Source: Psychrobacillus lasiicapitis
Lineage (GTDB): Bacteria; Bacillota; Bacilli; Bacillales_A; Planococcaceae
Direction: 5' to 3'
Assembly (NCBI RefSeq): GCF_006861795.1
Contig: NZ_VDGH01000005.1
Span: forward strand, 62,001-126,000
DNA: 64,000 nucleotides
The position numbers and the translations under genes were made by a program. This document shows positions 9,242-53,720 of this stretch, one piece after another (the first letter of the stretch is position 1; each line of letters begins with the position of its first letter). A model generated the notes under the pieces. The model saw only the letters and a program-made list of their open reading frames with translations, did no database searches and was not told the origin of the DNA.

Positions 9242-9977
9242 TCTTGACGGGACACTCGTCGGTGATAACACCGCTCTACAAACATTACTAAGCTACTACA
9301 AGGATTCTAATCTTGATATAGCCATCATTTATATTACAGGCAGGCATCTAGCCTCTGCCATTTCCTTAATAACAGAGGAGAATTTACCGCAACCAGATAT
9401 GCTAATTACAGATGTAGGGACTGCTATCTATACCTCTCCTAGTTTAAACGAAGAGAAGCTATGGACAGAAAAGATGCAAAGTGATTGGCATCCTCAAAAA
9501 ATCATTCAAATTGCGGAGAATTTCCCTCTTCTCAAAAGACAGGTTCTCCCAAATGATAATCGTATTTCCTTTACTGTCCATCAAAATGAGGAAATGGTTA
9601 GCGAGTTGGAACAAGCATTACGCGAAGAGAATATTCCTCACAAGCTCATTTTCAGTTCCAATCGCGATGTGGACATACTTCCTCCGAATAGCGGTAAAGG
9701 AGAAGCATTATTATATGCCCTTCAAAATTATTTTCATAAGGAAGTTCAGGTACTTGTAGCAGGAGATTCGGGAAATGATGTAGAGATGCTCTCTCTCGGC
9801 TACCCTTCTGTCGTCGTAGGCAATGCCCAGCGAGAACTAATCGATATGACAAGCCATCCTCTTCTTTACCGAGCTTCCAAGCATTTTGCAGGAGGTATTC
9901 ACGAGGCTTGGCTACATTTTTTTAATAAGAACAGCACAAGTGCCAATGTCGCCTGTAATAAGAAAACTGTGAGGTAA
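9210..9977 (+). CDS. HAD-superfamily sugar phosphatase, sucrose-6-phosphate phosphatase-like
   Basis: About 255 aa, HAD type with a C2B-like cap. Motif I is DLDGTL with the nucleophilic aspartate near residue 12. Motif II is YITGRH, the conserved lysine lies in NSGKGEALL, and motif IV is VAGDSGNDVEML. This pattern, with the TDVGTAIY segment, fits the sucrose-phosphatase subfamily (S6PP). The start is GTG at 9210, or TTG at 9207; a GAGGTGG site ends at 9203, inside the end of the glycosyltransferase gene. The coupling suggests that both act on one sugar phosphate. The substrate is not proven. Confidence 0.82.
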   Translation: MKENTFVLATDLDGTLVGDNTALQTLLSYYKDSNLDIAIIYITGRHLASAISLITEENLPQPDMLITDVGTAIYTSPSLNEEKLWTEKMQSDWHPQKIIQIAENFPLLKRQVLPNDNRISFTVHQNEEMVSELEQALREENIPHKLIFSSNRDVDILPPNSGKGEALLYALQNYFHKEVQVLVAGDSGNDVEMLSLGYPSVVVGNAQRELIDMTSHPLLYRASKHFAGGIHEAWLHFFNKNSTSANVACNKKTVR

Positions 9978-10003
9978 GGTGTCCTATTAGGAGTTTACGA
10001 TGA

Positions 10004-10050
10004 TTTTCGCTTCAGGCGGACGCTTTCCGCCGGCATGGCTTCAATCATTA
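10004..10050. repeat. Truncated copy of a GC-rich dispersed repeat
   Basis: The segment with CGCTTCAGGCGGACGCTTTC stands out as GC-rich against its flanks and is similar to the complement of one end of the fuller repeat at 10283-10430. It looks like a broken copy of a repeat family common between genes in Bacillaceae. No gene is visible in 9978-10533 other than these repeats and a terminator. Confidence 0.5.
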
Positions 10051-10282
10051 TGGATGGGCTGCTAACTTGGTGTCTGCAGGTATCAAAATAATAAATTTAT
10101 CAAGTTTACCACTCCATAATAATCAAACCAAATTAGACAAGGCTATCACCAAATAAGTAGCTCGTTTATTAGGATAAAGCTCGGCTCGTCTTTTTCAACT
10201 AGTTATTGGTATCACATCTTCTTTTGTTCCATAATATTTCACATTTCCCTAATAGCTAGTGACATCAAGGAAGTAGTTTGCT

Positions 10283-11998: not shown

Positions 11999-13126
11999 TC
12001 AATCCATTTTAATAATAATACGCGAGGCATCTCCTGTAGCAAGTAAGTCAAATCCCTCATTGATCTCTTCTAAAGAAATTATATTGGAAAGAAGTCGATC
12101 CACTGGTAGTCTGCCTTGTTCCATTAAGTTGATATAATTTGGAATATCTCTTTTGGGAACACAGCTTCCTACGTACGATCCCTTTAACGTACGTTCTTCA
12201 GCAGTTAATGTGACATAAGGGAATGCAAATTTATGTTCAGGATGGGGTAATCCAGTTGTCGTGGTTACTCCTCCGCGCTTTGTTACCCCGTATGCAACTT
12301 CCATAGCAGCAACAACTCCTGCTGTTTCAAATGCATAGTCTACTCCTCCATTTGTGTAAGCGCGTACTTGCTCCACAACATCTGGATCATTCGAATTAAA
12401 TATAGCAGTAGCCCCAAGCTCTTTTGCTTGCTCCAGCTTTTTCTCATTAATATCAATCGCAATGACCTCATTAGCTCCTGCTGCAATTGCGCCAAGTAAT
12501 GCGCTCAATCCAATACCACCAAGCCCTATAACTGCCACTTTACTACCTAAAGTAACTTCCGCCGTGTTTACTACAGCACCTACTCCAGTTATTACTGCAC
12601 AGCCAAATAAAGCCATTTTTTCAAAAGGCAAATCTCTATCTACTTTAACTAAGGAATTCTGCGCAACCACCGCATATTCCGAGAAGGCGGAAACCCCAAC
12701 ATGGTGTCCAATGCTCTCTTCGCCATTATGAATACGTATGCCCCCTCCGAGAAGTGTACCAGCACCATTCGATTGTGCACCAGGTTCACATAACGCTGGT
12801 CTGCCCTCTGCACAAGGAATACATTGACCACAGCTTGGTACAAATACGCAAATAACCTTGTCACCAGGCAGGAAGTTTGTTACACCTTCTCCCGTTTCAA
12901 CCACGACTCCTGCTGCTTCATGACCAAGCGCCATAGGAAGCGGGCGTGGTCTGCTACCATTTATCACGGACAAATCGGAATGACATAAGCTTGCGGCTTT
13001 TATTTGTATTAATACTTCTCCAGCTCCAGGAGAATCTAAATCTACTTGCTCAATCTTAATGGGTTTACTAGATGCATAAGGTCGCTCTGCACCTGATTCA
13101 CGTAAAATAGCAGATTTTACTTTCAT
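11999..13126 (-). CDS. Zinc-dependent alcohol dehydrogenase (MDR family)
   Basis: A 375-aa cytosolic NAD(P)-dependent medium-chain dehydrogenase. Catalytic zinc ligands are visible in SLCHSDL and GHEAAG. The structural-zinc lobe is incomplete-looking: CGQCIPCAEGRPALC keeps four cysteines. The Rossmann motif is GLGGIGLSAL, followed by an acidic IDINEKK that favours NAD. The ATG at 13124-13126 has AAAGGAG at 8 bp spacing; a GTG three codons earlier would overlap it. It is last in a run with an aldehyde dehydrogenase and a lactonase, which suggests an alcohol intermediate such as gamma-hydroxybutyrate, though the substrate is inferred. Confidence 0.85.
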   Translation of the reverse strand: MKVKSAILRESGAERPYASSKPIKIEQVDLDSPGAGEVLIQIKAASLCHSDLSVINGSRPRPLPMALGHEAAGVVVETGEGVTNFLPGDKVICVFVPSCGQCIPCAEGRPALCEPGAQSNGAGTLLGGGIRIHNGEESIGHHVGVSAFSEYAVVAQNSLVKVDRDLPFEKMALFGCAVITGVGAVVNTAEVTLGSKVAVIGLGGIGLSALLGAIAAGANEVIAIDINEKKLEQAKELGATAIFNSNDPDVVEQVRAYTNGGVDYAFETAGVVAAMEVAYGVTKRGGVTTTTGLPHPEHKFAFPYVTLTAEERTLKGSYVGSCVPKRDIPNYINLMEQGRLPVDRLLSNIISLEEINEGFDLLATGDASRIIIKMD

Positions 13127-13158
13127 AAAACTCACTCCTTTATGATAAAGTGAAACTT

Positions 13159-13253
13159 CAATCAGTGGGGGTTTTTCGACGCACAGGACGTGCTAGTGGG
13201 GACGGTGCGACATGGATGTCGCGCTTTTAGTCCCCGTCATCCCCCACTGATTG
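13159..13253. repeat. Large intergenic hairpin repeat
   Basis: The outer arms CAATCAGTGGGG and CCCCACTGATTG enclose inner hairpins GCACAGGACGTGC and GCGACATGGATGTCGC, and a GGGGAC/GTCCCC pair. The whole 95 bp folds as a branched structure. It lies between the aldehyde and alcohol dehydrogenase genes and could act as a processing or attenuation structure, or be a mobile repeat. Confidence 0.7.
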
Positions 13254-13276
13254 TTAGTTGAACCAATCGGGCTTTT

Positions 13277-13345
13277 ACGGGCAGTTGATCTCCCACTTAT
13301 CTTTTCGCTTTTCTTACATCTTGAAGTAGGAATCTTACTGCCCGT
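13277..13345. repeat. Hairpin repeat overlapping the aldehyde dehydrogenase stop codon
   Basis: ACGGGCAGT at 13277-13285 pairs with ACTGCCCGT at 13337-13345, with further pairing inward (CCCACTT with AAGTAGG). The right arm contributes the last codons and part of the stop (TAA at 13335-13337) of the aldehyde dehydrogenase. This looks like a repeat that inserted into, and now ends, the reading frame. Confidence 0.65.
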
Positions 13346-14786
13346 TAATGCGGGATAAAATTTTCATTCCGATAAATTTAAGGTCCGTCATCTCTTCAAT
13401 CGCATAATGAATTCCTTCTTTGCCGATACCACTTTCTTTTACCCCACCGTATGGAATATGATCATATCGTTTAACAGAAGCTTCATTAATCCATACTCCG
13501 CCTGTTTCTAAGGATTCTGCTACCCTCATTGCAAGATTAATATTATTTGTAAATACACCTGCTTGTAGCCCGTAGCGTGAATCGTTCGCATAATTAACGA
13601 CTTCTTCTTCCGTATCAAATGGCACTATAGCGATGATAGGAGCAAAAACTTCCTGACAAACAACCTTCATCTCCAAATCAACGTTTTCTAAAATCGTTGG
13701 TTCTAAGAAAGTACCGTTTCTTGTTCCACCCGTACAAATAACCGCTCCCGCTTCAACAGCTTCTTGAATCCATAATTCTGCCTTTTTGGCCGCCTCTTCA
13801 GTAATCATCGGTCCTAACTGAGTCGATTCTTCTTTAGGATCTCCCATTCTCAAAGCAGATACCTTTTCAGTAAGCTTGTTTAAAAACTCGTCATAAACGG
13901 ATTCATGAACAAAAATACGTTGTGCCGAAACACATGCTTGACCCGCGAATGTAAAGCCACCCATTAGTATGGAAGATACGGCATTATCTATATTCGCATC
14001 ATCAAAAATAATATTCGGCGCATTGGAGCCTAATTCAAGTGTCACTTTTTTCCCTTTAGCCATCTCGTGGATTTTCCACCCCACTGCTCCACTACCAGTA
14101 AAAGTTACTTTTTTGACAAGTGGATGGGTCACAAGTGGCTCTACTAAATTCTGCCCTGGACCTTGAATAATGTTCAGCGCACCAGACGGTAACCCAGCCT
14201 CTAGAAATAATTTATATAAGGCAACGGTAGAAAATGGTGTTTTTTCCGCAGGCTTTATAACAATTGTATTTCCCGCTGCGATTGCAGGCGCAATTTTATG
14301 CAATGCCATATTTAATGGGAAATTAAAAGGCGTTATTGCAGCGACAACTCCAAGTGGAACACGCTTGGAAAAACCAAATTGTTGCTCGCCACCGATTGCA
14401 TTATCCAGCACTATTTGCTCCCCGTGAAGATTTTTCGCTCCCTCTGCAGCGAAGTGTAAAACTTGAATCGCCCTAGCTACTTCGCCTCGAGCTTCTACGA
14501 TGGGTTTACCTGCTTCTAATGTTAAAAGCTCTGCAAATGCTTCTTTTCTTAACTCTAACAAATCTGCCGTGTTTCGTAAGATTTGACTTCTTCTATGCGC
14601 CGGCATTTTCTTCATCGTATGCTGAAACACTTCATGTGCATTTTCAACTGCTTGGACTACTTCGTCCCTAGTAGCGCAGAAAATATGTCCTATTTTTTCT
14701 TGATTGTATGGATTTAGAACATCAATTACATCTCTTTCACCTGCTATTAACTCCTCTGAATCTATGAAAGAACCGTTTATTAGCAT
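13335..14786 (-). CDS. Aldehyde dehydrogenase family protein (succinate-semialdehyde dehydrogenase-like)
   Basis: Cytosolic NAD(P)-dependent oxidation of an aldehyde to an acid. It is 483 aa, the usual length. Visible motifs are the NAD-binding VTFTGSGAVGW, the general-base glutamate in LELGSNAPN, and the catalytic cysteine in FAGQACVSAQR. The C-terminal EVFAPIIAIVPFD and GGVKESGIGKEG segments are typical. AGGAGGT precedes the ATG. It sits between the lactonase and an alcohol dehydrogenase, which fits oxidation of a hydroxy-acid-derived semialdehyde; the exact substrate is inferred. The last residues overlap a hairpin repeat. Confidence 0.87.
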   Translation of the reverse strand: MLINGSFIDSEELIAGERDVIDVLNPYNQEKIGHIFCATRDEVVQAVENAHEVFQHTMKKMPAHRRSQILRNTADLLELRKEAFAELLTLEAGKPIVEARGEVARAIQVLHFAAEGAKNLHGEQIVLDNAIGGEQQFGFSKRVPLGVVAAITPFNFPLNMALHKIAPAIAAGNTIVIKPAEKTPFSTVALYKLFLEAGLPSGALNIIQGPGQNLVEPLVTHPLVKKVTFTGSGAVGWKIHEMAKGKKVTLELGSNAPNIIFDDANIDNAVSSILMGGFTFAGQACVSAQRIFVHESVYDEFLNKLTEKVSALRMGDPKEESTQLGPMITEEAAKKAELWIQEAVEAGAVICTGGTRNGTFLEPTILENVDLEMKVVCQEVFAPIIAIVPFDTEEEVVNYANDSRYGLQAGVFTNNINLAMRVAESLETGGVWINEASVKRYDHIPYGGVKESGIGKEGIHYAIEEMTDLKFIGMKILSRINGQ

Positions 14787-15709: not shown

Positions 15710-16804
15710 TCAATTAACGTGTTCAATTTCAATAGATGCTCTCGTCACTCCACGATTAAAGGAAGCATCTAGAGCTTTCGTCAGATCCTCTAAGGTGAAA
15801 TCACAAGCGAGAATCTCACTAAATGGATATATGTCAATATTCGAGCTTAAGAACTTTAACGATTTATATAAATACCAAGGCTCATAACGGATTAAACCCA
15901 ATATGGAAATATTCTTTCTTGTCATTAATCCCGGATCAAACTCAGTTAATTTGCCAGGTGAAATATTACCAATAGAAATATATTTTCCACCGGATTTAAT
16001 GAGATGAATACCTTCTGCTAGAGCTGCAGGAACCCCTGTAAGTTCCATCACAACATCCGCACCGACTCCGTTTGTCAGCGACAATATTTTTTCCACACGT
16101 TCCTCAACTGTTTTATACTTGTCCATCGATATTATTTCGTCAGCGCCGAATCTTTTTGCTAAGGCAAGACGATTAGGTACTGTATCAATAACAATCACTT
16201 TAGCCCCAAACATTTTTGCAACTGCCGTAGCATTTAATCCAAGTCCACCAGCACCTTGAATCACGACTGTATCTCCATATTTTAGCCCTGACTTTTCAAT
16301 GCCAAAATATACTTGTGACAGGGCACAGTTTGCACCAGCTGCTACTTCATCTGGAACATTGTCTGGTACTTTATAAAAGTATTGATTGGGATGAATATAA
16401 TAATGCGTAGCAAATGACCCATGAAAATGTGGATACTCATGCGCCTCTTTGCTCCAATATTCATATGCATTTTCACATAAGTTCGCATATCCCTGTAAAC
16501 AGTGTTTACATCTTTTACAAGTTAAAAAATAAGCTGCTGCAATACGATCACCTACACTAACAGGTTGTCCTGCATAATCAGTAGTAACACCCTCACCTAG
16601 CTCAACAATTTCACCCACCATTTCATGCCCCATAACGCCGGATTTTTTCGTAGGATGTAACCCTTTCCAAATATGCAATTCCGATCCACAAACATTCGTC
16701 CTTCTGACACGGACTAGAATGGAATCTTTTGCCGCCTTCGGTAATTCATACTCTTCAAAAATCATCTGTTCCGGCTCTGTCATTACTGCAACTTTTCCCT
16801 TCAA
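15710..16804 (-). CDS. Zinc-binding alcohol dehydrogenase (threonine/sorbitol dehydrogenase-like)
   Basis: A 364-aa medium-chain dehydrogenase. Catalytic zinc ligands are in NVCGSE and GHEMVGE. The structural-zinc lobe CKRCKHCLQGYANLC is complete, the Rossmann motif is GAGGLGLNATA, and an aspartate follows the beta-2 strand (IVIDTVPNR). It starts at TTG 16802-16804, six bases after a GGGGGT site. It is the first gene of the minus-strand run lactonase, aldehyde dehydrogenase, alcohol dehydrogenase. It is distinct from the second dehydrogenase at 11999, so the cluster has two different alcohol dehydrogenases. Confidence 0.83.
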   Translation of the reverse strand: MKGKVAVMTEPEQMIFEEYELPKAAKDSILVRVRRTNVCGSELHIWKGLHPTKKSGVMGHEMVGEIVELGEGVTTDYAGQPVSVGDRIAAAYFLTCKRCKHCLQGYANLCENAYEYWSKEAHEYPHFHGSFATHYYIHPNQYFYKVPDNVPDEVAAGANCALSQVYFGIEKSGLKYGDTVVIQGAGGLGLNATAVAKMFGAKVIVIDTVPNRLALAKRFGADEIISMDKYKTVEERVEKILSLTNGVGADVVMELTGVPAALAEGIHLIKSGGKYISIGNISPGKLTEFDPGLMTRKNISILGLIRYEPWYLYKSLKFLSSNIDIYPFSEILACDFTLEDLTKALDASFNRGVTRASIEIEHVN

Positions 16805-21337: not shown

Positions 21338-21432
<95 letters not shown>

Positions 21433-23600: not shown

Positions 23601-23663
23601 AGGAGTTTGTTGCCGGATATATTAGTTTTATTATAATATATCCGGCAAAAAACCTCTTCTATA
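23601..23663. repeat. Palindromic repeat, copy 1
   Basis: TTGCCGGATATATTA (23610-23624) and TAATATATCCGGCAA (23634-23648) form perfect 15-bp arms around a 9-nt loop. A diverged relative in the same orientation lies at 40825-40887; shared flanks such as CTCTTCTATA extend beyond the arms. It lies 2.2 kb from the left island end. Confidence 0.7.
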
Positions 23664-33891: not shown

Positions 33892-34518
33892 CTACAATGA
33901 TTTCTCATATTCCCCAATGATTTTGTAAAAGGAGTTCTTTTTCAGCTCTAATAAGGTCATAAATTCAACTCCAGTAATTTGTTTACTTTTCCATTTTGGA
34001 TAGCCTTGTTCAAGCGTTTGAAGCTGTTGCTTGGATATTGTATTCAGATTTAAATTAGGTCTACCTAAATGTTTACCTTTAGACTTTGCCACCGCAATTC
34101 CTTCCGCTTGGCGTTGCAAAATGTTTTCACGTTCACGCTCGCTCACAAATGCTAACACCTGTAAAACCAAGTCACTTACAAATGTCCCTAACGTATCTTT
34201 GTGTTGAGTAGTATCAAGCAAAGGCATATCTAACACTCTTATATCTGCTTTTATATTTTGAGTAATATCTTCCCATTCTTTCTTTATCTCTTTTGAGTTT
34301 CTACCAAATCTATCAATAGATTTAATGTATAGTAAGTCACCCTCACGCAAACACTGTTTTAATGCTTGATATTGTGGTCTATTGAAGTCTTTCCCACTTT
34401 CCTTATCAATAAATATGTCACGTTCATTTATGCCTAATTCTTTTATTTCCTTTAATTGTCTAGCTTCATTTTGGTCTTTGCTCGAAACCCTTACATATAA
34501 GAAGGTCTTTTTATTCAT
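33892..34518 (-). CDS. Serine recombinase, resolvase/invertase family
   Basis: 208 aa. The N-terminal catalytic domain has LYVRVSSKDQNE with the nucleophilic serine, then the IDRFGRNSKEI region. The long helix is VLQVLAFVSERERENIL, followed by EGIAVAKSKGKHLGRP, and the C-terminal helix-turn-helix is GVEFMTLLELKKNSFYKII. Length fits resolvases of Tn3 elements and plasmids. It may resolve dimers of the island's circular form or be left from a transposon; no transposase is present. Ribosome site GGGAGCAG is modest. Confidence 0.88.
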   Translation of the reverse strand: MNKKTFLYVRVSSKDQNEARQLKEIKELGINERDIFIDKESGKDFNRPQYQALKQCLREGDLLYIKSIDRFGRNSKEIKKEWEDITQNIKADIRVLDMPLLDTTQHKDTLGTFVSDLVLQVLAFVSERERENILQRQAEGIAVAKSKGKHLGRPNLNLNTISKQQLQTLEQGYPKWKSKQITGVEFMTLLELKKNSFYKIIGEYEKSL

Positions 34519-38052: not shown

Positions 38053-38087
38053 TGTACGTTTTTACCTATAATAGGTTATTAATATAT
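38053..38087. repeat. 35-bp direct repeat, copy 1
   Basis: Identical to 38362-38396 over 35 bp. It contains the 13-bp palindrome ACCTATAATAGGT followed by TATTAATATAT. It lies in the 444-bp non-coding gap 37976-38419 downstream of the replication gene. Confidence 0.85.
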
Positions 38088-38281
38088 AGGATTTCGCAGT
38101 AATGACATTAAGCCTGCTAGAATCAATAACGTCTTTTAGCAAACATTCTCCCTAAATAAACTATTACGATATTTCATAAAGCCTTCAAACCAACAGTAAT
38201 TCTCATACCTAAGTATAAAAGCAAAGGAAGCACCTTCATTTGATACTTCCTCTAACTAATGTAATTTAGTTCGTGCAATCC

Positions 38282-38361: not shown

Positions 38362-38396
38362 TGTACGTTTTTACCTATAATAGGTTATTAATATAT
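38362..38396. repeat. 35-bp direct repeat, copy 2
   Basis: Same sequence as 38053-38087, 309 bp away, and 24 bp from the 3' end of the replication gene. Confidence 0.85.
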
Positions 38397-38419
38397 TGGT
38401 GGTGCGTTAGCATCCAACT

Positions 38420-39901
38420 TTAACTAATTTGCTTTACAAGATTCTCATATTGTCTTCTAGGTAACATCTTCTGTAAAGTCTTTTTATCAAAGAAGTGTAT
38501 AATGCAAGAATTAAAGGAATCAGAATAGTTCAAACCATTACACACTACTTTAAATGAAGAATCTTTTTCTTCTTCATATTCAATATTCATTTTATAAACG
38601 TTTGGTTTTTTTTCCTTTTTTATTACCTTACCATGCTCATTTCGTACATGGCGATTACGTTCAATTATTTCTATAACTCCGTTTTGTTCAAGTACATCAA
38701 TCAAATTTCGTGTTGTTTTTTCTGCTAAACCGCTCGCTTCGCTCATTTGCCTAAATACCATATAAAAATTGCCATTCTTCATTGCATATCTTTTACTATG
38801 TATGAGTAAGCAATAGGTCAACAGCTTTTCATTTTTACTTTTCAATTGCAATATCTGTCTCATTTCCTCATATGTAACGAATAAATCCTTTTCTTCTATC
38901 GTTAAACTTACCTCATTTTCGTAGATGTACTTGACGCTAGATTGTATATCTTTAATACAATCTTCCCATTTAGTTGTATAACACCTTGTATCTTGTTCAC
39001 TCAGCCACTCAACCAATTTCTTGTAATTTTCTTCTTCCGTTAAGCCTTGATGACGAAAATATTTTGCTAATTTAAATAATGAATTATGTCTCATGCCTGT
39101 TGTGGTTAATCCTGTATGTAACAATTTTTCGATTGCTTCAATCGTTTCCTGTTCACCTATGTTTTCCCTATATATTTTTAAGGGTGTATACTTGCTATCA
39201 ATAAATCCTCTTACTTCTTCAACCTCTCTAACTTCTTTTTCTTCAACCATATCACGTTCACGCTCTAAGATATTGTAAATAGTCCCAATGTCCATTTGTT
39301 TAATCTTGAGAATATATTGCACATTTCGAATTGGCTTTAAACCTTTGTAATAATCCACATACCAACAACGGGGTTTACGCTTATTTTTAAAGTTAATTCC
39401 TAGCGGTAGTTTTACCCCCTGTCTCATTCCATTAGGTCGGTACTCTACCTCTCCATAATCAATCTTTAACAATTCTGATTTATTCATGGTCAACAAATAT
39501 AACTCGTGAGCCAATTCGTTTTTAATTGGTTCATTGAAATATAAATCAACATGATAACCTTTGTTGCCACTTATAGAAATATGAATTTCCTCATTCTGTA
39601 TACCAAGTTCCATTAGTGCATTTACTAGACGATAAACGGTCCATTTAGCTTTTACCTTATCTTTAACATCTATATCAAAACATATAAATTTTGTGTGATA
39701 GGTAGAAGAAAAGACACCTAATGTTGCTTTTCCATCTATATGCCTCTGTACAACATAGTCGTTTAAAGGAAATACCTTTTCATTTTTATAACTGTTAAAA
39801 GTTTGATAATTACCATGTTCAGATAGAATCAAATACTGATACCTCGCCATAATAAACAGCTCATTTATTTTTTTTATTATATCCTTATTTTTATTAGACA
39901 T
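38420..39901 (-). CDS. AEP primase-type replication initiation protein
   Basis: 493 aa. The N-terminal domain (about 15-210) shows the archaeo-eukaryotic primase pattern. FDID (75-78) supplies the metal-binding acidic pair, SGNKGYH (111-117) the histidine motif, and EYRPNGMRQGVKLPLGI a third conserved block, as in TOTE-type primases. The C-terminal part (from about 340) has a winged-helix look, EASGLAEKTTRNLIDVLEQN, suitable for origin binding. No helicase domain is present, so host helicase is probably used. It is likely the replication protein of the island. AGAGGA precedes the ATG. Confidence 0.78.
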   Translation of the reverse strand: MSNKNKDIIKKINELFIMARYQYLILSEHGNYQTFNSYKNEKVFPLNDYVVQRHIDGKATLGVFSSTYHTKFICFDIDVKDKVKAKWTVYRLVNALMELGIQNEEIHISISGNKGYHVDLYFNEPIKNELAHELYLLTMNKSELLKIDYGEVEYRPNGMRQGVKLPLGINFKNKRKPRCWYVDYYKGLKPIRNVQYILKIKQMDIGTIYNILERERDMVEEKEVREVEEVRGFIDSKYTPLKIYRENIGEQETIEAIEKLLHTGLTTTGMRHNSLFKLAKYFRHQGLTEEENYKKLVEWLSEQDTRCYTTKWEDCIKDIQSSVKYIYENEVSLTIEEKDLFVTYEEMRQILQLKSKNEKLLTYCLLIHSKRYAMKNGNFYMVFRQMSEASGLAEKTTRNLIDVLEQNGVIEIIERNRHVRNEHGKVIKKEKKPNVYKMNIEYEEEKDSSFKVVCNGLNYSDSFNSCIIHFFDKKTLQKMLPRRQYENLVKQIS

Positions 39902-40132: not shown

Positions 40133-40252
40133 TTACAATTCGCCATCAAATTCGTATACTTCTTTATATGGATGGCTTTCAACATAAAAAATAAGATGAT
40201 TAATCATTCGCAGAAAATTTTCTTCTTCACTTGATGTGTCAGAAAGACCCAT
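40133..40252 (-). other. 39-codon overlapping ORF or frameshifted C-terminus
   Basis: The +2 frame at the end of the 92-aa gene at 40204 encodes MGLSDTSSEEENFLRMINHL and ends SHPYKEVYEFDGEL. It overlaps that gene by 49 bp and crosses an A-rich run. Either a coupled small protein, or the true C-terminus of the upstream gene reached by a frameshift (programmed, mutational or a sequencing error). Confidence 0.4.
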
Positions 40253-40482
40253 TTTTTATCTCTCTCAATCTGTTTGACTCTCAAATCAAAATATTTTTTC
40301 AACTTCTTAATATCTTTTTTAGTTAGTAGTAAGACATCACAACCATTCCCATACTTCTCCCCAGCTGTATAGCGCTTCAATCCTCCTATTTTTAACATAT
40401 CATGAATCAAGTACAAATTAGATGGTTCGTTTAAAGTATATTTATAAACTAAATCTTCTCCACAATCAATATAGCGTCCCAT
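40204..40482 (-). CDS. Small conserved-looking protein upstream of the replication gene
   Basis: A 92-aa basic protein: MGRYIDCGEDLVYKYTLNEP, LKRYTAGEKYGNGCDVLLLT, then a lysine-rich helix. An AAAGGAG site precedes the ATG. It has no signal peptide or membrane segment. It is 300 bp upstream of the primase gene and may belong to the same operon. The C-terminus may continue in another frame (see 40133). Family not recognised. Confidence 0.6.
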   Translation of the reverse strand: MGRYIDCGEDLVYKYTLNEPSNLYLIHDMLKIGGLKRYTAGEKYGNGCDVLLLTKKDIKKLKKYFDLRVKQIERDKKWVFLTHQVKKKIFCE

Positions 40483-40605
40483 AATATCATTCTCCTTTTT
40501 ATTGTTAATTAACCTCTCTAAATACGCAGACTACAAATTCAAAAAAATAATAACTAAGTTTTCTAACCCCCCTACAAATATTAATTAATCTTTTTTATAA
40601 ATCTG

Positions 40606-40635
40606 TTGACAAAAGATAATGGCTTGATGTATAGT
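40606..40635 (+). promoter_or_regulatory. Promoter of the predicted small RNA
   Basis: TTGACA, 18 bp, TATAGT on the plus strand, a near-consensus SigA promoter. It is divergent from the replication operon and followed 100 bp later by a strong terminator, with no ORF between. Confidence 0.7.
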
Positions 40636-40641
40636 TATATT

Positions 40642-40767
40642 AAGATGCAATACTTGTGTCAAACTTCATTATTTTGAGAAGTATTACAAATATACCATTT
40701 TATCTTCTATTTGTCAAATTAGATTGTTGTGATAACCTCTCTATTCATAGAGAGGCTTTTTTATTTT
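40642..40767 (+). ncRNA. Predicted island-encoded small RNA of about 125 nt
   Basis: The interval from a good promoter to a strong terminator has no coding capacity with a ribosome site. A 5' hairpin is evident: AATACTT (40649-40655) pairs with AAGTATT (40679-40685), with inner TCAAA/TTTGA. A U-rich single-stranded stretch and the terminator hairpin follow. It may control the divergent replication operon or act in trans. Existence is inferred from sequence only. Confidence 0.5.
40736..40767 (+). terminator. Terminator of the predicted small RNA
   Basis: CCTCTCT pairs with AGAGAGG around ATTCAT, followed by CTTTTTTATTTT. Confidence 0.92.
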
Positions 40768-40824: not shown

Positions 40825-40887
40825 AGGGGTTTTTCGTCGGATATATCAATATAATACTAATATGTCCTGCAAAAAAACTCTTCTATA
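40825..40887. repeat. Palindromic repeat, copy 2 (diverged)
   Basis: Same orientation and layout as 23601-23663: flanking AAGGGGTTTTT and CTCTTCTATA, and a decayed palindrome around CGGATATAT and ATATGTCC. It lies 2.6 kb from the right island end. Confidence 0.55.
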
Positions 40888-42305: not shown

Positions 42306-43280
42306 TTATAGGTATTCCCTTAAATCAGATGCGACCTGTTCTACATCTAAATCTAAATATTGAGTAGTCACACCGAGATCTGAGTGTCCTAGTGCTTTAC
42401 TAATGAGAGCTACATTCGCTCCCTTGTTCAACAAATTCTTGGCATAAGCTCGTCTAAGTGCATGTGCATTGATGTTTGTTAAGCCATATTTTTTACTATA
42501 CTTTGTCAATTGCTTTGAGATTGCGTTATTTGTTGATTTTGTATTTAACGATGTTCCTTTTGTTGAAATGAAAACATTTTTATTCTGCTCATTATAGTGA
42601 CTCCGTATCTTTTGGTTTTGCTGAATTAGTATTTGTAGCAACTTAAGTAATTGATTATCAAGAGGCAATTTTAAAAACTGATGATTCTTTAGAATAGCCC
42701 CATCCATATAAATAACCATGTTATTGAAATCGATATGCTTCTCTTCTAGCTGTCCTAAAGTATTGATTCGAATGCCTGTTTTGTACATAGTAAGTACCGC
42801 TACTGCATCACGTAAGCCTACGAAGGTATTTAAATCTAACAATGACAATAAGATTTGTATATCCTTCTCATCTGCTCCCTTTTTAACCTTCTTATCGACC
42901 TTTACAGACACCATTTGCCAAAACTTAGACTCATACCACCCATTATTGAAACACTTGCTTAAAAATGATTTTAAAGCCTTAAGTCTAGTCAGCTTTGTTT
43001 GGTTCGACACTTGCATTTGTTCAAGCCATCCATAGATTGTATTAAGCGTAATATCCGACAGATACTGAACATCTTGAACTTTCCTGAAGCCTCTTATAAT
43101 AGTCTCATAATCTTTGATAGTCCGATGCCTGTAGCCACTCGCTGTCATCTGCTGAACAATGATTCCTGATGCTTCATCAATAGTTCTTGAATTAACCCTC
43201 TGTGAACCGGTTTGCTCGGGAACTAACATAATACTATCTAAATCAATATTCACGTCAAACAGCCCTGTTTTCTTTGTCAT
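42306..43280 (-). CDS. Tyrosine recombinase/integrase of the island
   Basis: 324 aa. The N-terminal core-binding (SAM-like) domain is near 45-130, with the pattern YRHRTIKDYETIIRGFRKVQ. The catalytic domain has the first arginine in TGIRINTLGQL, HALRRAYAKNLL with His and Arg, LGHSDLGVTTQYL with the second His and the tyrosine nucleophile. All catalytic residues are present. ATG at 43278-43280 follows GGAGG; the longer frame is not supported. It lies 156 bp from the right tRNA-Arg repeat, typical for an integrase beside its attachment site, with no excisionase recognised. Confidence 0.9.
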   Translation of the reverse strand: MTKKTGLFDVNIDLDSIMLVPEQTGSQRVNSRTIDEASGIIVQQMTASGYRHRTIKDYETIIRGFRKVQDVQYLSDITLNTIYGWLEQMQVSNQTKLTRLKALKSFLSKCFNNGWYESKFWQMVSVKVDKKVKKGADEKDIQILLSLLDLNTFVGLRDAVAVLTMYKTGIRINTLGQLEEKHIDFNNMVIYMDGAILKNHQFLKLPLDNQLLKLLQILIQQNQKIRSHYNEQNKNVFISTKGTSLNTKSTNNAISKQLTKYSKKYGLTNINAHALRRAYAKNLLNKGANVALISKALGHSDLGVTTQYLDLDVEQVASDLREYL

Positions 43281-43350
43281 AACAAAAAATCCTCCATTCA
43301 ATTGAATTAGAAGATAGTTTCGGTATAAATTTACATAAAATGACAGGGAT

Positions 43351-43436: not shown

Positions 43437-43531
<95 letters not shown>

Positions 43532-53512: not shown

Positions 53513-53542
53513 CTCATACACGGTCAAATAATGTCCATGTGA

Positions 53543-53710
53543 GATAGCCCTCCAGAATACTGAATTCTGACAATCCTACATTTCTTCAATGCAGAACCAA
53601 CCTAGAATAGGAAAAGCTATACTAGGTTTCGGCAAATGACCCTTTCCTTTAGCAATTGACGGATCTTTTCATCCTCCTGCTAAGTACTCTTGTCAGTTTG
53701 CACCTCTATC
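53543..53710 (-). promoter_or_regulatory. Lysine riboswitch (L-box) aptamer
   Basis: 168 nt. P1 is closed by GATAG/CTATC. The conserved AGAGGTGC starts the aptamer, followed by AGGAGGATGAAAAGATC, GGAAAGGGTCATTTGCCGAA and a five-helix layout. It lies between uvrC and lysC, pointing to lysC, with a terminator hairpin 30 nt downstream of the aptamer. Confidence 0.93.
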
Positions 53711-53720
53711 TTCACTTATC

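Follow-up and report, generated by a model that had tools for sequence, protein, structure and literature searches.

The replication operon of an integrated island in Psychrobacillus lasiicapitis is headed by two promoters that face each other at close distance, and on balance this module is probably a brake on the operon, exerted by a cis-antisense RNA through pairing of the 5' ends or through pairing combined with promoter interference. All positions refer to the window, the whole stretch of 64,000 nucleotides that was analyzed. The DNA sequence itself shows the two promoters, a terminator for the antisense RNA, the overlap of the two predicted RNAs, and the conservation of this arrangement in two other islands. 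These islands are L037 (genome G231, L029/L037) and L193 (genome G028, L190/L193).

Facing promoters and predicted antisense RNA

Only two promoters in the 5 kb scanned matched the consensus at 11 of 12 positions. The antisense promoter, TTGACA-18-TATAGT at positions 40606 to 40635 on the plus strand, is the near-consensus promoter already named in a previous sequence-only reading. The operon or sense promoter at positions 40689 to 40717 on the minus strand is TTGACA-17-TATATT with a TG before the −10 box, thus an extended −10 promoter, and it lies downstream of the antisense promoter and faces it. This second promoter had been missed in the sequence-only reading, which had described a small RNA divergent from the replication operon. 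The predicted RNA is instead convergent with the operon mRNA and partly antisense to it, 5' to 5'.

The antisense start site was placed at about 40642, 7 nt past the −10 box, and the positions of promoter and terminator predict an antisense RNA of about 126 nt (40642 to 40767, plus strand). Its intrinsic terminator at positions 40736 to 40764 (plus strand) is the hairpin CCTCTCTATTCATAGAGAGG, an 8-bp stem with four G-C pairs, followed by a T run; the initial scan placed hairpin and T run at 40736 to 40755, which bears out the earlier description of a terminator. Because the inferred starts are 40642 on the plus strand and 40682 on the minus strand, the 5' ends would overlap by 40 to 41 bp on both strands (40642 to 40682), and each predicted RNA is exactly complementary to the other over its first 40 to 41 nt. 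The antisense RNA would cross the operon promoter and end just outside of it, with about 85 of its 126 nt located upstream of the sense start.

Three frames of at least eight codons exist in the predicted antisense RNA, starting with ATG at nt 4 (10 codons), GTG at nt 88 (13 codons), and GTG at nt 15 (37 codons, reading through the terminator). None was preceded by a ribosome site by eye, in agreement with the initial claim of about 125 nt lacking a coding frame with such a site, and no reading frame was common to the antisense RNAs of the window, L037, and L193. A sense-leader peptide common to the three islands was likewise not found by reading. No Rfam family reached the gathering threshold in the module region; the best weak match, RefA9 with 28.1 bits versus a cutoff of 49, was on the opposite strand over the terminator. 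Elsewhere in the window, a Bacillaceae-1 RNA (13180 to 13245, minus strand) and a lysine riboswitch (53537 to 53716, minus strand) reached the Rfam gathering score.

A two-part hairpin at the 5' end (AATACTT/AAGTATT and TCAAA/TTTGA) had been proposed as well. It can be drawn, with −4.4 kcal/mol, but within the first 60 nt of the antisense RNA, an alternative fold (−8.9) beats it (−5.2), and without its terminator the RNA folds like its shuffles (z of 0.08, with 106 of 200 shuffles at least as good). A conserved 5' hairpin was rejected because it is not the predicted fold, is absent from the relatives, and belongs to an RNA folding no better than shuffled sequence. The argument for a regulator that had been built upon this hairpin fails with it.

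On the other side of the overlap, the operon mRNA would begin with an untranslated leader of about 200 nt (40483 to 40682, minus strand), as counted from the inferred sense start up to the first gene's ATG. A sense terminator or attenuator was not found in the window leader, and the L037 leader contains a weak terminator only. The leaders to the first start codon are about 200 and 120 nt long, and the ribosome sites lie about 105 to 190 nt downstream. Blocking of the first 39 to 41 nt of the leader changed the predicted access to the ribosome site from 0.65 to 0.46 in the window and from 0.51 to 0.52 in L037, and because this change is inconsistent, no clear effect on translation is predicted. 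An anti-Shine-Dalgarno role for the motif ACTTCTC near the 5' end of the mRNA, present in the window and L037 only, was also considered and rejected, since access to the L037 site was unchanged when the 5' end was blocked. For the L037 mRNA, a 5' end that is base-paired immediately upstream of the ribosome site is indeed predicted (z of −2.28).

Probability of a chance arrangement

Evaluation of the module needs to consider that two good −35/−10 matches and a terminator may arise by chance in AT-rich DNA. Single promoter-like sites are indeed common, with 20 in the 5 kb scanned and no enrichment compared to the shuffles (27.6, standard deviation of 5.8), and terminator-like sites are only slightly enriched (4 versus 1.4, standard deviation of 1.2). 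A facing pair with both promoters matching at least 11 of 12 positions, however, appeared just once among 3,000 dinucleotide shuffles of the window region and once among 3,000 of the L037 region, and a facing pair together with a terminator in none of the 3,000 shuffles of either region. Among 343,666 bases from 40 sources, some of them overlapping, such a pair occurred only at the places in the window and in L037. Together with the counts of the pattern in genomes and its conservation in three islands, as outlined below, these results make a chance arrangement very improbable.

Conservation of the module in related islands

A match to the primase of the window at an E value of 1e-8 or better was present in 8 of 261 genomes of the family, the genome of the window included. 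The primase of G231 is 80% identical to that of the window. Upstream of it, the L037 module is composed of TTGACA-17-TATATT with TG, facing TTGACA-17-TACAAT, and of a terminator hairpin at the same place as that of the window, with an unrelated sequence. Comparison of the window and L037 upstream of the operon by blastn yielded no similarity beyond a palindrome, which is described below.

A pattern for facing promoters was built from the window and L037, both of which consequently match by construction. It was found in 3 of the 261 family genomes, and the third, G028 with L193, was new. In a sample of 398 genomes of the class, the pattern matched G000 and G028 only, with no match in the 359 sampled genomes from outside the family, and a reversed control pattern was absent among the matches listed for this class sample. 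In the antisense promoter and the DNA directly before it, L193 is 83% identical to L037 over 59 bp, and it is 79% identical over 53 bp to positions 40590 to 40642 of the window, which comprise the antisense promoter and the DNA just upstream. By this sequence comparison, the L193 module proved to be homologous to those of the window and L037. It also contains an antisense terminator hairpin and a partly degraded palindrome at the corresponding places. Conservation of promoter and terminator in related islands, which had been suggested as a check of the initial prediction, was found in two relatives, L037 and L193, with terminator hairpins that are unrelated or partly related to that of the window.

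The geometry was similar in the three islands. The 5' ends would overlap by 40 to 41 bp in the window, 37 to 38 bp in L037, and 38 to 39 bp in L193, where a second possible antisense −10 box would give an overlap of 28 bp, and the predicted antisense RNAs are about 126, 128, and 135 nt long, respectively. In the three pairwise comparisons, the sense −35 box plus the next base was identical at 7 of 7 positions each time, the extended −10 region at 10, 8, and 8 of 10 positions, and the antisense −35 box with its upstream stretch at 20, 22, and 24 of 28 positions. The sense spacer had drifted (2, 4, and 5 of 13 positions identical), as had the sequence of the overlap (13 of 41, 20 of 42, and 19 of 39 identical columns). 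As judged from these alignments, the antisense promoter is the best-conserved piece of the module, and the RNA bodies have diverged. What selection seems to have maintained is a pair of promoters with their spacing and a terminator, not a given RNA sequence or fold. Kept promoters and a diverged RNA body would fit a cis-antisense RNA, which needs to match its own target only.

A search with the 321-bp module region as DNA against 101 relatives yielded short and weak matches, the best with an E value of 1.2e-4 when the window itself is set aside. G028, the genome of L193, was among those 101 genomes, but its true relative was absent among the matches listed.

The island and its other sites

Perfect direct repeats of 95 bp, each with a whole tRNA-Arg gene, are located at positions 21338 to 21432 and 43437 to 43531 and are likely the boundaries of the island. 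A gene for a tyrosine integrase at positions 42306 to 43301 encodes a product 55% identical to the integrase of the L037 island. With an AEP primase (PF22548) and direct repeats at a tRNA site, the island displays the features of integrated elements with AEP primases. A serine recombinase encoded at positions 33892 to 34518 of the window shares 89% protein identity with one encoded at 16728 to 17423 of L193, in islands that differ in their replication gene.

Two direct repeats of 38 nt follow just after the primase gene (38053 to 38090 and 38362 to 38399); in L037, which also has two copies, 34 and 35 nt are identical. They are candidates for origin repeats. A related motif, AATAACTATATATATTA, was seen by eye behind more distant primases.

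Upstream of the operon promoter lies an imperfect palindrome at positions 40839 to 40867. Its left copy at positions 23615 to 23643 is perfect (GCCGGATATATTA-N9-TAATATATCCGGC), so that copies exist near both ends of the island, and the L037 palindrome is at 12422 to 12450. Of the 261 family genomes, 2 contained the palindrome pattern, each time in an island of this kind (those of the window and L037), and a stricter form was not found in viral contigs. The palindrome probably belongs to the control module and is possibly a site for a recombinase, a regulator, or replication.

The operon genes behind the module

The first gene of the operon is an open reading frame for 92 aa at positions 40204 to 40482 (minus strand) with the ribosome site AAAGGAGAA and without a match in Pfam, PHROGs, or NCBIfam. 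It is followed at positions 38420 to 39901 (minus strand) by the putative replication gene, which encodes an archaeo-eukaryotic primase (AEP-TOTE) of 493 aa (PF22548, E value of 5e-13; phrog_5362, DNA primase). The primase gene of L037 is preceded by one that weakly matches endonuclease VII (12734 to 13531; phrog_1035, E value of 0.0038). In L193, a GIY-YIG gene (9603 to 10235) is followed by that for a 324-aa protein matching phrog_19047, a transcriptional regulator, and more weakly phrog_186, a DnaD-like helicase loader; G028 yielded no primase match. From these assignments, a gene of the replication type is located behind the module each time, although not always the same one, often with a nuclease-like gene in between. 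The slot between module and replication gene in the three islands is perhaps a slot for homing endonucleases.

Distant homologues of the primase, with 26 to 33% identity, are encoded on 29 plasmid records from Staphylococcaceae, among them NZ_CP073888.1, with sizes between 6.4 and 38.7 kb. They are annotated as hypothetical proteins only and may possibly be unrecognized replication proteins. That these distant homologues reside on plasmids, some of only 6.4 kb, is indirect support for a role of such primases in replication.

Loci without the module and look-alikes in phages

DNA similarity to plasmids and phages was not found. Scans of genome and viral contigs with the single primase protein gave no relative; alignment-based scans gave one and six loci, none of them with the module. 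Upstream of primases with 25 to 57% identity, a strong facing pair was present at none of 30 loci (three had a weak pair, the best with 19 of 24 matches), nor was one present on plasmid L057. G142 (L043), with a broken primase, had no facing pair in the piece of sequence scanned. Because differing replication genes follow the module and because the 30 primase loci and L057 are without a strong pair, the module is, by these sequence searches, a trait of the island family and not of the primase family.

A loose form of the facing-promoter pattern occurred in at least 120 stretches of phage contigs. Twelve loci that were fetched carry the full pattern, and so do all four further ones, 16 in total, some with a hairpin and a T run on one of the two flanks. 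With the flanks of four of them read, none of the 16 was treated as homologous to the module. Since phage contigs carry the full pattern, the islands are not distinguished by facing promoters alone. Three phage contigs, L195 (7803 to 7911), L197 (7101 to 7205, reverse complement), and L198 (2270 to 2376), contain face-to-face promoters with overlaps of 29 to 33 bp that precede ORFs resembling, by eye, those of XRE regulators.

Mechanism and competing explanations

In the mechanism that we favor, the operon promoter would drive a leftward mRNA with the 92-aa gene and then the AEP primase gene, and from the second promoter, about 40 bp inside the operon, a short noncoding RNA would run in the opposite direction across the operon promoter as far as the terminator. 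This antisense RNA would regulate the operon negatively in cis and probably also in trans. It would pair perfectly with the mRNA over the leading 40 nt of both, and with start sites this close together, polymerases could leave only one at a time. When the antisense RNA is made, expression of the operon would decrease and replication of the excised island would be limited, as is the case with the antisense RNAs that control plasmid copy number. Transcription of both RNAs, the sign of the effect, and the relative weight of pairing and interference are inferred from this arrangement. Control of copy number by an antisense RNA is a plausible interpretation of the layout. Some observations count against an antisense brake, namely, the small number of loci (three, with a choice of two antisense −10 boxes in L193), the gene between leader and replication gene in all three islands, the independence of the module from the primase, the absence of a clear predicted effect on translation, and a window leader without a terminator for the antisense RNA to switch on, that of L037 being weak. 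The distant ribosome sites and their inconsistent predicted access speak against a direct block of translation, and the leaders speak against classical attenuation.

The same promoters could alternatively act by transcriptional interference alone. The antisense promoter would then be the part that matters, its RNA a by-product, and the terminator a shield for the upstream genes, and the two mutually exclusive promoters would give replication a threshold or switch it between two states. A start spacing that is kept at 37 to 41 bp while the sequence in between changes would agree with this explanation, as would an antisense RNA without conserved structure outside its terminator and the inconsistent predictions for the ribosome site. 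Perfect complementarity of the 5' ends does not discriminate between pairing and interference, because the layout gives it anyway. However, all three islands have kept a separate RNA with a terminator and of about the same length, which is more than interference requires, and we regard interference as the sole mechanism as rather unlikely. It is highly unlikely that the RNA acts in trans elsewhere, on a helper phage or a host mRNA, from a position that is incidental: it does possess its own promoter and terminator, but its body is not conserved between the islands, unlike that of an RNA with a shared host target, and it matches no Rfam family. Facing promoters are known in phage switches, and the phage contigs that match the pattern show them before ORFs resembling XRE regulators, which would allow the rightward transcript to be the mRNA of a regulator in a face-to-face, lysogeny-type switch. 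In such a switch, each transcript encodes a regulator. Here, the promoters are convergent, but the antisense side is noncoding; the transcript ends after about 126 nt, and the three RNAs have no frame that is shared or bears a ribosome site, which makes this explanation extremely unlikely. Of the regulator suggested by the sequence-only reading, regulation of the replication operon stands as the best interpretation, whereas a strict lysogeny-type switch does not, there being no recognizable repressor on the antisense side.

The antisense brake and the other features may also be joined in a wider model, which we consider speculative. A cassette of palindrome, operon promoter, facing antisense promoter, and antisense terminator would be portable between islands and would stand before unrelated replication genes, the AEP primase in two islands and a DnaD-like replication-type protein in the third. 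Through the promoter spacing of 37 to 41 bp, the two states, silent and replicating, would exclude each other as in a switch, and by fast divergence of the RNA body, every island would acquire an incompatibility group of its own.

Comparison with known systems

The comparisons rest on excerpts of the papers cited. In IS10/Tn10, the 5' ends of RNA-OUT and RNA-IN are complementary over 35 nt, and RNA-OUT starts inside the sense unit, crosses the sense promoter, and ends outside (PMC5006887). The antisense RNA predicted here has the same layout, with 37 to 41 complementary nt in the three islands and an end beyond the sense promoter. In contrast to RNA-OUT, which covers the start of transposase translation, it would target a replication operon, and with leaders of about 200 and 120 nt, it would not pair over the translation start; the ribosome site is about 105 to 190 nt downstream. 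The plasmids pT181, pSK41, pIP501, and pMV158 also direct a short antisense RNA against the leader of the replication-gene mRNA (PMC5703833). As in a countertranscribed RNA, the predicted RNA is encoded on the opposite strand and, with the inferred starts, is complementary to the leader. However, the plasmid RNAs are antisense to sequences located downstream of the rep promoter, in the leader or around the translation start, and several act via an attenuator, whereas only the first third of the island RNA would pair, the rest covers the operon promoter rather than lying within the leader, and no clear attenuator was found.

RnaG is an RNA of Shigella. In RnaG/icsA and in MtlS/mtlA of Vibrio cholerae, as in the reading proposed for the module, a cis-antisense RNA opposes its target at the 5' end, the promoters are convergent and close to each other, and transcriptional interference takes place (PMC6597380). 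They differ in the overlap, 71 nt for MtlS/mtlA and 120 nt for RnaG/icsA versus about 40 nt here, and in their targets, which are chromosomal or virulence genes and not island replication. SymR is likewise complementary in cis to the 5' end of the symE mRNA, but it starts within the coding region and controls a toxin (PMC1891008). The island itself resembles the PrimPol-PV1 integrated elements, which contain an AEP primase gene and are flanked by direct repeats in tRNA or tmRNA genes, with the AEP here assigned by PF22548; a term search in the available text of that survey returned neither "antisense" nor "copy number" (PMC5862659). The small RNA of SGI1, as far as the excerpt describes it, concerns mobilization and is a different RNA (PMC9299015). 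Among the papers listed in literature searches on antisense control in primase-type or integrated elements, none was recognized as describing such control.

Antisense control of copy number and 5'-to-5' antisense pairs are known kinds of regulation. New are the location in front of replication operons of islands, the fixed spacing of the facing promoters, and a replication gene behind the module that seems to have been exchanged. Islands with replication genes of the primase type are common, and the restraint of their replication has been little described. If the antisense brake is true, such islands would possess a plasmid-like antisense brake with the geometry of IS10, and the sequence pattern of the facing promoters would allow more of these brakes to be found.
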